From the NCBI GenBank assembly GCA_009773645.1, contig WSYB01000003.1, positions 62,001-126,000 on the forward strand: a stretch of DNA of 64,000 nt, in the 5' to 3' direction. The first letter of the stretch is position 1. Each line of letters opens with the position of its first letter. This DNA is from Geobacteraceae bacterium (GTDB lineage: Bacteria; Desulfobacterota; Desulfuromonadia; Geobacterales; Geobacteraceae). Position numbers and translations under genes: made by a program. Below are positions 12,509 to 20,062 of this stretch, one piece after another. The notes under the pieces were generated by a model, which made no database searches, was not told where the DNA came from, and was given only the letters and a program-made list of their open reading frames with translations.

Positions 12509-12536
12509 TTGACTTCCCGTTAAAGTGGGCTACTAT
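12509..12536 (+). promoter_or_regulatory. sigma-70 type promoter for the selenoprotein gene
   Basis: TTGACT (12509-12514) and TACTAT (12531-12536) are 16 bases apart, about 40 bases before the start codon. A GC-rich imperfect dyad (AAGGGGG/CCCCCTT) overlaps the -35 box and might affect its use. Confidence 0.65.
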
Positions 12537-12577
12537 CTGCTTAAACGCAATTTAATTCACTACATGGAGGTTTGGCA

Positions 12578-13147
12578 ATGGGAAGCGTTATCACATGGGA
12601 AACGGATCTGAAAAAGGCCCTGGCGCGGGGCCAGGCGGAGCACAAGACCATCCTGCTCGATTTCTTCAACCCTGGCTGAATTGGCTGCAAACAGATGGAT
12701 GCGGTCACGTATCCCAATTTGGAAGTCTTCAACTTTATTACCGATAAAATCGTCCCACTGCGGGTACCTGCCGATGCCCAGCCGATCTCCGGCGATTTCA
12801 AGGTGATGTGGACCCCTACCCTGGTGACCCTCGACTATTATGGCAAGGAACATCACCGAACGGTCGGCTTCCTCCCTCCTGAAGAGCTGATACCATCGCT
12901 CCTTTTGGGGATGGGAAAGACCGATTTTGAAACCGGTCAGTTTAATGACGCGATCATTCACTTCAATACCCTCCTGAACGGTTATCCCGGGAGCGCTGCC
13001 GCGCCGGAGGCCGTTTACCTGCGCGGGGTCAGCTGTTACAAAAGCACCCACGACGCCAAACCGCTCAAGGAGGCCTACGAACAGCTCAAGGCCGAATACC
13101 CGGAAAGCGAATGGGCGACGCGTGCCCAGCCTTACAGTCTTTTATAG
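12578..13147 (+). CDS. selenocysteine-containing thioredoxin-fold protein (in-frame TGA at 12677)
   Basis: A 190-codon frame runs from ATG 12578, with GGAGG 7 bases upstream, to TAG 13147. It is broken only by TGA at codon 34. The context is FFNPG-TGA-IGCKQMD, so the TGA takes the first position of a thioredoxin-type CxxC and would give UxxC. After the TGA the same frame continues as a normal thioredoxin-fold chain with a cis-Pro segment (MWTPTLVTLD, about residue 84). It ends in a TPR-like helical tail (GQFNDAIIHFNTLLNGYP). A 7-bp stem, TGGCTGC/GCGGTCA with a 12-base loop, begins 3 bases after the TGA and could serve as a bacterial SECIS. Promoter and terminator make the gene monocistronic. 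A nonsense mutation is the alternative reading, but UxxC placement argues against it. Confidence 0.85.
12680..12707 (+). promoter_or_regulatory. candidate SECIS hairpin downstream of the Sec codon
   Basis: TGGCTGC (12682-12688) can pair with GCGGTCA (12701-12707) when G-U pairs are allowed, leaving a 12-base loop AAACAGATGGAT. The loop lies 10-21 bases after the TGA, near the usual distance for SelB recognition. The loop sequence itself was not matched to a known SelB site. Confidence 0.4.
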
Positions 13148-13181: not shown

Positions 13182-13206
13182 GGGGGACTTTGATGTCCCC
13201 CTTTTT
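13182..13206 (+). terminator. intrinsic terminator of the selenoprotein gene
   Basis: A 7-bp stem, GGGGGAC/GTCCCCC, with a 6-base loop is followed by TTTTT. It lies 35 bases after the stop. The open frame that appears to extend the next gene upstream to 13168 reads through this hairpin, so that longer start is unlikely. Confidence 0.85.
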
Positions 13207-14777: not shown

Positions 14778-15818
14778 CTATTTATTCCGCCAGTGAGCAT
14801 CAGGGCCTCGTCCAAGGCATTCGAGACGGGTCGCTTCCCGCTCCTGGCGCAAGATACGGCGGATCAGGTCAATACCAACCGCCGGACAGCGCTTCTGGAT
14901 GTCCTTGATGGAAAAGTCACCGTGCATGCTCCTGATAGCTTCGAGCACGGTGGCGGTCTTTGCCCCCTTTGCAGCGGAGACGTCCCCCACCCGGCTTTCG
15001 AATTCCCGATACGCCGTCTTCAGGATGAACAGCAGATAATTCACGTAATGCCACGGATCGTGCTTCCCTTCGTGCCATCCCCGGGAACTCAGCTCCAGCG
15101 TCTCGTAGTAGCGCTCTTTGTTTTCTTCTATGAGCCGTTCGAGACTGATGTAACGCCCGACCTCATAGCCCAGATGGTAGCACTGCAACAGGAGGAGGAG
15201 CCGGGAAACCCGGCCGTTGCCGTCGCGGAAAGGATGGATGCAGAGAAAATCAAGATTGAATGCGGCCAGAGCGATCAGTGGGTGCGCCCATCGCTCCCGT
15301 AAGCAGCTATTCCACATCTCCAGAAGTTCCGCCATGTAAGCCGAAGTCTTGTCCGCTTTGACCGTTTTGAAGCGTAACCGTTCCCTGCCGTCGGGATACC
15401 GCTCGATTATATCGCCATCCTTCTCTTTGAATTTTCCGGCATCCCAGATATCGCCACGTGTGAGACGGTGGAACTCCAGAATTGACTGTTCAGAAAGGGG
15501 GAGAGCGGCTCCTTTGGAATGGATGAGGTCGAGCGCCTGCCGGTAGCCGCGGACCTCTTCCTCATTCCGGTCATGAAGCAGCTCTTTTCCCAAGATTACC
15601 GCCTTGATGCGGCGCTCTTCCACGGTAACGCCTTCGATGCGGTTGGATGAGACGGCGCTTTCGATCAGTGCGTGTTCTCGCAGGGCTTTCAGCTTTTGCG
15701 GCGCCTGGCGGGTATAGAGTTCCTGGCGGCCCCGCGCCTCGCCCAGATCGGCCAGATACCAGGATGTGCTGGCGGGGATTGTTTCAAGTTTTCCGGCAAA
15801 CTGCTTGAAGGTCATCAT
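14778..15818 (-). CDS. Fic-domain AMPylase-type protein with N-terminal inhibitory helix
   Basis: Fic proteins transfer AMP or related groups from nucleotides to hydroxyl side chains of target proteins. This 346-residue protein has the core motif HPFRDGNGRVSR (about residues 194-205), which fits HPFx(D/E)GNGRxxR, so it should be catalytically competent. The inhibitory motif (S/T)xxxE(G/N) is present as SNRIEG near residue 60, making this a class II Fic in which the N-terminal helix restrains activity. The C-terminal region is probably a winged helix (SIKDIQKRCPAVGIDLIRRI). GGAG precedes the ATG. It is encoded alone beside a tandem repeat and the SIR2 gene. Target and function are unknown, and toxin, defence and regulatory roles are all possible. 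Confidence 0.9.
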   Translation of the reverse strand: MMTFKQFAGKLETIPASTSWYLADLGEARGRQELYTRQAPQKLKALREHALIESAVSSNRIEGVTVEERRIKAVILGKELLHDRNEEEVRGYRQALDLIHSKGAALPLSEQSILEFHRLTRGDIWDAGKFKEKDGDIIERYPDGRERLRFKTVKADKTSAYMAELLEMWNSCLRERWAHPLIALAAFNLDFLCIHPFRDGNGRVSRLLLLLQCYHLGYEVGRYISLERLIEENKERYYETLELSSRGWHEGKHDPWHYVNYLLFILKTAYREFESRVGDVSAAKGAKTATVLEAIRSMHGDFSIKDIQKRCPAVGIDLIRRILRQEREATRLECLGRGPDAHWRNK

Positions 15819-16234: not shown

Positions 16235-19200
16235 TCATCGCGCATTCCACCTACGCTTCAGTTCAATTAATCGAGAGTCATTCAACAAAGAAGGCTCTGC
16301 CTCTCCAATTTTAGTCAGAACATCTTCAATACCATATGGCCATTTTGTTGCGTTTTCAGGTAAAACGGCCCATATAAGCGCCAATGTCTTTTCCGGGTAT
16401 TTTGTGACAATCTCGTTCTTTGCCCCCCGTATGTGAGGAAGAAAAATGCCCTCCTCATCAATTCTAGTCACCAGTGGCAGAATTGTGTCTGTGACAATAG
16501 GAAACACAGCTTCATTCGAAAAGGCTAAATCACATAGCTTCGCGGATATACTCGGGCTCTTTGCTTGTTTCTGACGCGGCCAAACCTCTGTAAAGAAAAC
16601 AGGTAAATTCGCTCTCCAAGAGCCTTTCCCTCCTTCAGAGGACCATCTCTCCAACTGCCAAATTACCTGGCCTCGGAAATCATCATCTGCATTAAGCAAA
16701 ACAGTACGCATCTCCTCATTTGTAATGAAGCGTTTCCCTGTTTTCTTGTACGGACTTCCCCATCCGGCCAAAAGAATTGCCGACAAAACATTGCCCTCTC
16801 TTCGCCCAACAACATGCTTGTCCAGAGCAAGCTTTATGAACCGAGGCTTCAAACGGAGGTAAAGTTTTTCGTTCGGAACAGTTGCAGCCCAGAGAAAGCC
16901 GTCCCAAAAGGCATCGTGATCCTCGTCTTCATTGCCAAGAGCAGAGAGAATATTCTTATCGGTCCAGGCAGGAGCAATTGCATAAAACCAATTCAGGTGA
17001 AATGCAAACATTACCAGTGCATACCGCCTGTGGTCACCCGGCAAGCCCAGCAATTCTTCAACATGGGTGGTCCAAGGTATAGGAAATCCTTTCCCGGCTT
17101 TTAATCCCTCCTTCTGTGGATCATTCATGATGGCTTGCGCCAATTTGCCAACCGGCGAATTCAGCGCTTCCGTCGCCCATGCCGGGTCCTTATCCCCGCG
17201 AACTAAACCCGTTTTGGAGATTTCTGATGCAGTCCTTAACACTTCGACAATCTTTGACCATATCCCTTCGAATTGTTCCGGGTAGCTATTAATCAGGGCT
17301 TTACTGGATTTTTGAAGCCAATCCGCTGTTGGATAAATAAATCCTGCAACTGCGTCGGTCGATAAATTTGCTAATCTTTGGGCAATCAGCGCTGAGAACC
17401 GCGGCTTATCTTTTTCCCTCGCAGGAGAATATAGAAACTTTCTCCAGGCCCACTCCGGCCATTCTCCTTTTTTCGCTGAGATGTTGAGCGCCGAAAATGC
17501 ACGAATTGGTCGTTCGGAAGCCAATCCCGCAAAGGGATCTTTTTCTACGAATCCTTCAGTCATACGACCGCTAAGTTCCCTAGCCTTGCCGAGAAGTGAG
17601 TACAACGGTTCAGCAAGCAGCACTGAGAACTCTGAGTCAGTTCGGACAGTGCCACCACGACTTTCCATGGAAGCGGCGGCCTTAGCTGCGTATTGCTGTT
17701 GCCATTCAGGTGCAAACTTCTGCAACTTGGCGCTTTCCGTTTGCAGGTCGAAGCTGAAACCGCAGCCATTTTTATGAAGCCAATGTATGCGGTTTAGAGA
17801 GCTCCAAGCACGCCATTTTTCATATTCTTTCTTATCTTCCCCTTTTAAGCGTGAGTAACCTCTTAGCAGCCGCTTCTCCATCCGCTTCCTCATTGACTCA
17901 GGGAAATCACTCCATCGTTGTCCCAGAGTCAGCATGAGATCTCTTTTATGGTGGCTATCCCAAAATACGCCGTCATTCAGACTGCAAAGCAACTGACCAG
18001 TTTCGGCGCCGGTAAGAAGTTCTTGACGACCGGACGCCCATATTCTTAATCGGGCAAAGACCTTGTCATCATCTGTCCACCAAGCCAGATACTCCTGTTT
18101 CGCTAGTTCCGGGTTTTGAATAATGAGCCTCTTGAAAAGGTTTACATAGAAGAGGAATGTATGCGAGATGCCGTAATGCCTATCTGAAGACTCTCCTTCC
18201 AAATCCGGGTCCGGTTCTATCGGACAGAGAGTGAGATAACTAAATCCTTCAAGTTCTTTCTCAAGGGAAACGGCGTGTTCCAGATTCTTCCGGAATTCCC
18301 GAACAGCGGTTACGAGATGTTCGTCAGGGATTTCTACCTTCTCGTGAAGCTCCGGATACTTTACATCCAGGCTTATCATTTGCCTGACACTAATGCCGTC
18401 AATGTTTTCCGGAGGTTTCGGTCCACCACTATATGGCCATTCCAATTTCAAATAGGGCCGCCAAATCGAAGCGACCTCCCTTACCGCAGCATCAGACCAG
18501 CCATCAAGATCAATCGCAGCCTTCAGTTGATACCATTCATGATAGTCTTCTTTACACGTGCCCCATGCTTCGAAAACATAACGCCATGCTCGCCGGACTG
18601 CGGGAAAGGATTCTTGTTTTCTTCGTTCTAGTTCATACAGGATACGAGCTTGTATCCCGGAATGGAGTCCGGCTTGATGAGATGCCCACCAGACCGATGC
18701 AGGTTGATACGAAACCACACTAATCCAAAGACCAAGTTGCCATAACCGATTGGGCAACGTGGGCATATTAACTGAGTAATGCCCCCTTAATGCGGCAAAG
18801 TTGCTGTCTTGGAAATTTTGTCGATCAAGCCTGGTTGCGGCAAAGCAATTCCATACGCCTTCAGGAATCTCTCTCTTTGCCCAATGATCTTCAGGATCAA
18901 TCTTTGGGGGTATCGGATCACCGTCCAATCCGTATGATTCAAAAGGATCAAAATACGGCCCTCGTTCAAAATAACTGCCGAGATTGCCAGGCTTCAGATA
19001 TCGTATAGCAGGATCAAAAACGCACAACCATTCGGCAGGAAGCGGATTTTCGGAAGCGGTGACCCTCTTTGCCCCTTCAAGAGTAGAGACAATATGTGCT
19101 ACCTGTCCTCTTTCGTGAGGTAGTAGAGCTTCCGGCCCTTTTCGGGCCATGTCAATGACATTTCCGTGCCATAATTCGGGGTTCTGCGCTCTGCAAGCCC

Positions 19201-20062
19201 AAGCACCCAATGTATCCCAAAGAGATCTATGCCCGTCAGTTTCGTCATATGCGATCGGCAAAACTCCCTTATGCCGCCACTTGGCCTCCGCGTCACTTTG
19301 CGAACCGGCCTGAAAGGCGTACATACTTGACAAAGATTTCTGATGCTTATTCAGGGCTTCCAGCAGATATAGCACAGGCGGGTCATCGGCAGCATATCCT
19401 ACGAAAACCACGATGAATTTGTCCAGAATTGAACGTATGAACTGTGTTGCCCAGCCATCGGCAAGGTAGGCGTTGCCAAATTCCGAGCTCGACAAAACAA
19501 AACCATCACCGGAAGCCCCCCGATATTCCTTATCGACGTGACCGTGTAAATGGATAACCCCCTCAAATTCTTCGGAGCGCATTGGATCTGGCAGGCGAGG
19601 TGGCCTGAAATATGGTAGGGAGCTGTCGCAGGTCTCGAATAGAAGATCAAAGTTCGTTGTGACAAGTCTGGTTTTCCCTTCAGGAGACCGCGCCAAATCA
19701 AGCATTATCCGGTGTGCTGAAAGATCTACATCCGCCTTTGGTTTGAGGGCATCTGCAACCGACGCTTCTATCTCGCGGACAAGGAAATCTCGTTCAAGAA
19801 GACCGAAAACTCTGTCAGCCGAAATGAGTCCACTAATACCGGTTCGTTTGTCTAATTCTCGCGCTTCAGTTATGAGCTTTCGTACTGGATCGTCTGCTGT
19901 AACGCCCAAACTATCAGTAACCTTTTCCGCCAATCCGAAGAAATCCGAGAGACCTGCGCGAGCACGCGAAACACCGGCGCCACAGAAGAAAATTACTCTA
20001 CCGTCGTCTCTGGCGACTAGCAAATCGTCGGGTATTGATGGGCCATTAGCATGAAATCGCAT
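16235..20062 (-). CDS. large SIR2-domain protein, candidate anti-phage defence sirtuin (DSR1-like)
   Basis: This 1275-residue protein has an N-terminal SIR2 domain and a very long, mostly helical C-terminal region without a recognised domain. SIR2 features in order are FFCGAGVSRARAGLSDF (residues 25-41, NAD-binding GAGxS), VTTNFD with Asn137, HLHGH with His171/His173/His175, and FVGYAADDPPV (220-230). The Asn and His are the catalytic pair of NAD-degrading defence sirtuins such as DSR1 and DSR2, which have the same order of a SIR2 head and a long phage-sensing tail. The gene stands alone beside a fic gene and tandem repeats. By eye it is less GC-rich than its neighbours, which suggests acquisition by transfer. 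The defence role is inferred. Confidence 0.85.
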   Translation of the reverse strand: MRFHANGPSIPDDLLVARDDGRVIFFCGAGVSRARAGLSDFFGLAEKVTDSLGVTADDPVRKLITEARELDKRTGISGLISADRVFGLLERDFLVREIEASVADALKPKADVDLSAHRIMLDLARSPEGKTRLVTTNFDLLFETCDSSLPYFRPPRLPDPMRSEEFEGVIHLHGHVDKEYRGASGDGFVLSSSEFGNAYLADGWATQFIRSILDKFIVVFVGYAADDPPVLYLLEALNKHQKSLSSMYAFQAGSQSDAEAKWRHKGVLPIAYDETDGHRSLWDTLGAWACRAQNPELWHGNVIDMARKGPEALLPHERGQVAHIVSTLEGAKRVTASENPLPAEWLCVFDPAIRYLKPGNLGSYFERGPYFDPFESYGLDGDPIPPKIDPEDHWAKREIPEGVWNCFAATRLDRQNFQDSNFAALRGHYSVNMPTLPNRLWQLGLWISVVSYQPASVWWASHQAGLHSGIQARILYELERRKQESFPAVRRAWRYVFEAWGTCKEDYHEWYQLKAAIDLDGWSDAAVREVASIWRPYLKLEWPYSGGPKPPENIDGISVRQMISLDVKYPELHEKVEIPDEHLVTAVREFRKNLEHAVSLEKELEGFSYLTLCPIEPDPDLEGESSDRHYGISHTFLFYVNLFKRLIIQNPELAKQEYLAWWTDDDKVFARLRIWASGRQELLTGAETGQLLCSLNDGVFWDSHHKRDLMLTLGQRWSDFPESMRKRMEKRLLRGYSRLKGEDKKEYEKWRAWSSLNRIHWLHKNGCGFSFDLQTESAKLQKFAPEWQQQYAAKAAASMESRGGTVRTDSEFSVLLAEPLYSLLGKARELSGRMTEGFVEKDPFAGLASERPIRAFSALNISAKKGEWPEWAWRKFLYSPAREKDKPRFSALIAQRLANLSTDAVAGFIYPTADWLQKSSKALINSYPEQFEGIWSKIVEVLRTASEISKTGLVRGDKDPAWATEALNSPVGKLAQAIMNDPQKEGLKAGKGFPIPWTTHVEELLGLPGDHRRYALVMFAFHLNWFYAIAPAWTDKNILSALGNEDEDHDAFWDGFLWAATVPNEKLYLRLKPRFIKLALDKHVVGRREGNVLSAILLAGWGSPYKKTGKRFITNEEMRTVLLNADDDFRGQVIWQLERWSSEGGKGSWRANLPVFFTEVWPRQKQAKSPSISAKLCDLAFSNEAVFPIVTDTILPLVTRIDEEGIFLPHIRGAKNEIVTKYPEKTLALIWAVLPENATKWPYGIEDVLTKIGEAEPSLLNDSRLIELKRRWNAR

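Follow-up and report, generated by a model that had tools for sequence, protein, structure and literature searches.

A predicted selenocysteine thioredoxin-fold protein with a TPR-like tail in Geobacteraceae and other Desulfobacterota

A 2006 survey (PMC1794560) lists a thiol:disulfide interchange selenoprotein for Geobacter metallireducens, G. uraniireducens and Syntrophus aciditrophicus, with a separate thioredoxin besides it in both Geobacter species. The family is not listed there for G. sulfurreducens, and the accompanying table records for it three selenoproteins and no replacement of selenocysteine (Sec) by Cys. Table 1 of a 2026 review (PMC13188914) includes, from earlier work, a "Thiol:disulfide interchange protein" assigned to PF13098, with a UxxC motif and WP_011366075.1 as representative. 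According to the same review, Sec-to-Cys replacement is limited mostly to FdhA and SelD. No mention of a TPR-like tail was found in the literature searched on this family.

Other described proteins resemble the product of the gene analysed here in part. The gamma domain of DsbD ranks with the nearest thioredoxin-fold domains in both sequence and fold, but has Cys rather than Sec, belongs to a periplasm-facing membrane protein and lacks a TPR tail; DsbD-gamma is fused to a membrane beta domain, whereas the present protein consists of a thioredoxin domain plus a helical tail (189 residues in all). YbbN/CnoX shares the order of a thioredoxin domain followed by TPR helices and gives the top Foldseek match, but its TPR part is longer. 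The plain Sec-thioredoxin of Geobacteraceae (PF00085, UxxC) also combines a thioredoxin fold with an in-frame TGA, but is a separate gene at another locus (C4:213808 in the source genome) and fits PF00085 far better. The DsbD-like C-terminal segment of TsoB, a rhodanese/DsbD-fusion selenoprotein (NF045694), is the top NCBIfam match by E-value, but its 35 bits are far under the 805-bit cut-off and its architecture differs.

The gene lies in a 64,000-nucleotide stretch of a Geobacteraceae genome, referred to as the window. Its features, with the evidence for each in brackets, are the following.

12509 to 12536, forward strand: sigma-70-like promoter site, TTGACT-16-TACTAT (weak evidence)
12566 to 12570, forward strand: Shine-Dalgarno sequence GGAGG (7 bases 5' of ATG 12578; relatives are arranged alike)
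12578 to 13147, forward strand: predicted selenoprotein coding sequence, 189 residues with Sec34, thioredoxin-fold domain and TPR-like C-terminal helices (frame, homologues, alignment, predicted structure)
12587 to 12892, forward strand: thioredoxin-fold domain, residues 4-105, DsbD-gamma-like, with the cis-Pro80 codon at 12815-12817 (profiles, predicted structure, fold search)
12677 to 12679, forward strand: in-frame TGA, codon 34, read as Sec34 (codons at this position in 124 distinct homologues)
12686 to 12688, forward strand: TGC codon of the putative resolving Cys37 of the UxxC motif (invariant column in alignment A1)
12695 to 13147, forward strand: truncated 150-codon ORF, the expected output of a table-11 gene caller (ORF calling)
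12697 to 12714, forward strand: candidate bSECIS hairpin GGATGCG-GTCA-CGTATCC, apical loop at 12704-12707 with G as first base (conserved pairing in Sec forms, synonymous resampling)
12878 to 13123, forward strand: five C-terminal helices, residues 101-182, TPR-like and similar to CpoB/YbgF (profiles, predicted structure)
13182 to 13201, forward strand: hairpin resembling an intrinsic terminator, with a T run after it (strong hairpin)

An earlier note on this DNA had described a well-initiated frame with a promoter and a terminator of its own, interrupted once by TGA, of which a gene caller would report only the 150 codons from 12695. This description holds on all points, the promoter resting on weak evidence. 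Codon 34, in the context FFNPG-U-IGC, is the sole in-frame TGA between the ATG and the TAG at 13145-13147.

The same note had read the TGA as Sec34, and had tied this reading to the Sec machinery, to the residue found in homologues and to the correctness of the TGA itself; all three lines of evidence support it. The source genome contains the full set of selA, selB, selC and selD: SelA is matched at E 2e-154, SelB and SelD lie above cut-off, and the tRNA-Sec, with anticodon UCA, scores 79.5 bits. The SelD gene (L048, G000:C47:86701-87618) has an in-frame TGA, and SelD is therefore probably a selenoprotein itself. A second selenoprotein candidate of the source genome, at G000:C4:213808-214101, encodes a thioredoxin of family PF00085 and contains a single in-frame TGA.

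A homologue is present in 39 of the 48 family genomes, in 49 of the 141 genomes of the order sample and in 85 of the 395 genomes of the phylum sample; in the phylum sample, nearly all have one TGA. No plasmid or viral relatives of the gene were found. Among 124 distinct homologous loci, the position of codon 34 is occupied by TGA in 99, by TGC or TGT in 23 and by other codons in two. Within the family, TGA occurs in many genera, and TGT or TGC in genus g7, which includes Geomonas silvestris, and in one sister genus, g5. Alignment A1 shows no variation in the UxxC Cys or in the WTP cis-Pro loop. In the 29 codons 5' of the TGA, third-position changes dominate, and the two flanks of the TGA thus evolve as one protein. 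Chance is excluded, since TGA or a Cys codon occupies the aligned position in 122 of the 124 loci and the upstream codons evolve as protein.

A paralogous branch, nearly all members of which are Sec forms, carries the motif FWFDG-U-xGCxxMNTGPYS (L163, L165, L136-L139, L142-L144, L146, L147 and L164, the last from genome G037, which also holds a gene of the window type). The distant relatives of family f62 (L152-L154, L156, L157, L167, L168) mostly lack UxxC; most have CxxS, and in two the place of Sec is taken by Val or Glu.

On these genomic and comparative grounds, codon 34 is almost certainly decoded as selenocysteine and the gene a real selenoprotein gene. The opposite reading, in which the TGA is a true stop created by a nonsense mutation or a sequencing error, so that the locus is a pseudogene or yields only the 150-codon piece from 12695, agrees with standard gene calling, which gives that piece alone. 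It is nevertheless highly improbable: 99 distinct loci from across a phylum share this TGA and nearly all others have Cys, the codons 5' of it are under purifying selection, the genome has complete Sec machinery, and no Shine-Dalgarno sequence is evident in the window before ATG 12695. Conservation of the TGA among homologues means that it is not a sequencing error, and together with the conservation of the upstream codons it also rules out a pseudogene. SelB and tRNA-Sec would decode the UGA, directed by the hairpin 17 nt 3' of it.

The earlier note had placed the SECIS stem at 12682-12707. A hairpin exists, but the conserved one lies about 7-15 bases further 3', at 12697-12714. It starts 17 nt after the UGA, with its loop 24 nt after it, in agreement with bSECIS placement. 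The first base of the apical loop is G in all 99 Sec sequences, partly dictated by a Val codon. Pair cells of the hairpin are formed in 89% of cases in the 99 Sec sequences versus 52% in the 23 Cys sequences; sliding the partner by 1-3 bases reduces pairing to 22-70% in Sec sequences, with no reliable drop from 52% in the Cys homologues. Synonymous-codon resampling gave a mean z of -1.82 for Sec and -0.28 for Cys forms (means over related sequences, not averages over independent samples), and z = -3.2 for the window gene. Relative to dinucleotide shuffles, the folding z of the region is modest (-1.64). On the tree, pairs 21/36 and 22/35 change in the same direction, but well-supported branches supply no more than two independent pairs; because independent changes are so few, covariation is consistent with the hairpin but not significant. 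As judged from these alignments, Sec forms conserve a SECIS-like hairpin to a degree that coding alone would not require, and in Cys forms this hairpin has decayed.

The window gene is very probably a member of the selenoprotein family predicted in 2006, the match being by Pfam family, motif and hosts. As in that family, PF13098 is matched above its curated cut-off (33.7 bits; cut-off 27) and the UxxC motif has one Sec. In most of the Sec-form Geobacteraceae genomes searched (G003, G009, G030, G034), no TGA-bearing gene other than the orthologue passes the PF13098 cut-off; in the source genome and G007, the plain Sec-thioredoxin also passes, beside the orthologue. One point counts against the identity if genus g6 is Geobacter proper: its four genomes all have the TGA-bearing gene, yet the 2006 survey lists no such family for G. 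sulfurreducens. Given its fit to a family listed since 2006, the protein is not unprecedented. Unlike the 2006 table, which records no Sec-to-Cys event, the window family is Sec-dominant with such events. Against NCBIfam release 20, no score came near a cut-off, and the family thus seems to lack a dedicated NCBIfam model.

The direction of the Sec/Cys exchange was read from two trees. In a 124-protein tree, rooted on the distant f62 relatives, which mostly lack UxxC, 18 UxxC-type Cys forms are nested inside Sec forms. A 108-protein tree, built without long branches (the Cys form L148 among them), requires precisely two changes between Sec and Cys, as do its bootstrap trees across the 5-95% range. 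These changes concern a Geomonas-type clade of 16 sequences and the single sequence L143. Sec, dominant in the family, is apparently also the ancestral state; Cys appears to have arisen from Sec at least once, and at least twice by the 108-protein tree, once in a clade that keeps selA. All g7 genomes keep selA, and the one examined (G013) has a TGA-bearing thioredoxin, indicating that in g7 Sec was lost at this gene and not from the organism.

AlphaFold2 modelling of seven sequences (mean pLDDT 89.8) predicted a thioredoxin fold over roughly the first 105 residues, followed by five helices; together with the profile matches, this agrees with the TPR-like C-terminal helices claimed in the earlier note. 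In the profile search, DsbD-gamma was among the best PDB sequence matches, and CpoB/YbgF matched the tail. Foldseek ranked Salmonella YbbN (3qdn) first and E. coli YbbN fourth, with DsbD-gamma next after YbbN at rmsd 2-3. A second structure aligner placed many thioredoxins and DsbD-gamma alike at Z of about 12-13. By eye, no signal peptide is evident in the 189-residue sequence, and the protein is therefore probably cytosolic.

In several Geobacteraceae, the gene lies, in whole or part, in a group with rpe, rsmB (sun), an htpX-like M48 peptidase gene and a cardiolipin-synthase-like gene; rpe and rsmB were named by eye from sequence. Relative to the selenoprotein gene, selA maps about 4-8 kb 3' on the same strand in six relatives (G003, G007, G009, G036, G037 and G038), and about 81 kb away in the source genome. 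A GntR-like regulator, also named by eye, directly precedes selA in two inspected relatives. Directly beyond the cls-like gene, the window encodes a Fic/DOC-family protein (14778-15818, reverse strand) that was not found there in the syntenic relatives compared. It also encodes, at 16235-20062 on the reverse strand, a 1275-residue protein with a SIR2_2 domain; this protein matches the DSR1 anti-phage models of PADLOC (2e-86), most strongly in its first 350 residues. Identity with the Geobacter Sec-thioredoxin GSU3446 is unlikely, given the rpe/rsmB/htpX/cls neighbours here and the second TGA-bearing gene, a good PF00085 match, found in each Geobacteraceae genome tested.

By analogy, the protein is on balance probably a thiol-disulfide reductase of the cytosol that uses its TPR-like tail for docking. 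Its active site, Sec34-Ile-Gly-Cys37, would lie at the start of a helix, with the WTP cis-proline loop. The selenolate of Sec34 would attack a disulfide or other oxidised thiol of a client protein, Cys37 would resolve the mixed selenide-sulfide, and cellular thioredoxin or thioredoxin reductase would re-reduce the Sec-Cys bond; the TPR-like tail may select or dock clients.

The protein could instead donate electrons, in the manner of DsbD-gamma, to one dedicated partner such as a peroxiredoxin or a membrane redox protein, the tail serving as the recognition surface. The closeness of DsbD-gamma in sequence and fold makes this a possibility, albeit a tentative one, as none of the conserved neighbours is a redox partner, and DsbD-gamma is periplasmic whereas the window protein has no evident signal peptide. 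Still less probable is a seleno-chaperedoxin like YbbN/CnoX, whose TPR module would hold clients that are oxidised or unfolded; its Sec-Cys site would meanwhile reduce these clients and hand them on to chaperonins. The order of domains and the Foldseek ranks of the two YbbN structures speak for such a role, but the tail is shorter (189 residues in total against about 285), no YbbN/CnoX model is among the Pfam and NCBIfam matches listed at E up to 1, from libraries that may lack one, and YbbN superposes at rmsd 11-13 with TM of about 0.4, which reduces the likeness to domain order. It is doubtful that these genes form a family of cytosolic, Sec-dominant chaperedoxins in Desulfobacterota, combining a Sec thioredoxin domain with a TPR module for holding clients, with Sec as the ancestral residue and a single change to Cys in the still Sec-decoding Geomonas lineage. 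If they did, the Sec/Cys swap in a chaperedoxin would be open to study in natural orthologues.

Standard gene calling removes the active site and the first fifth of a protein encoded in many Desulfobacterota genomes. Sec-to-Cys replacement was less expected here, and would extend the short list of such replacements by a family of thiol oxidoreductases. Close Sec and Cys orthologues, both in genomes that keep the Sec machinery, would constitute a natural experiment on selenium use, in which the RNA element appears to decay where Sec is lost.
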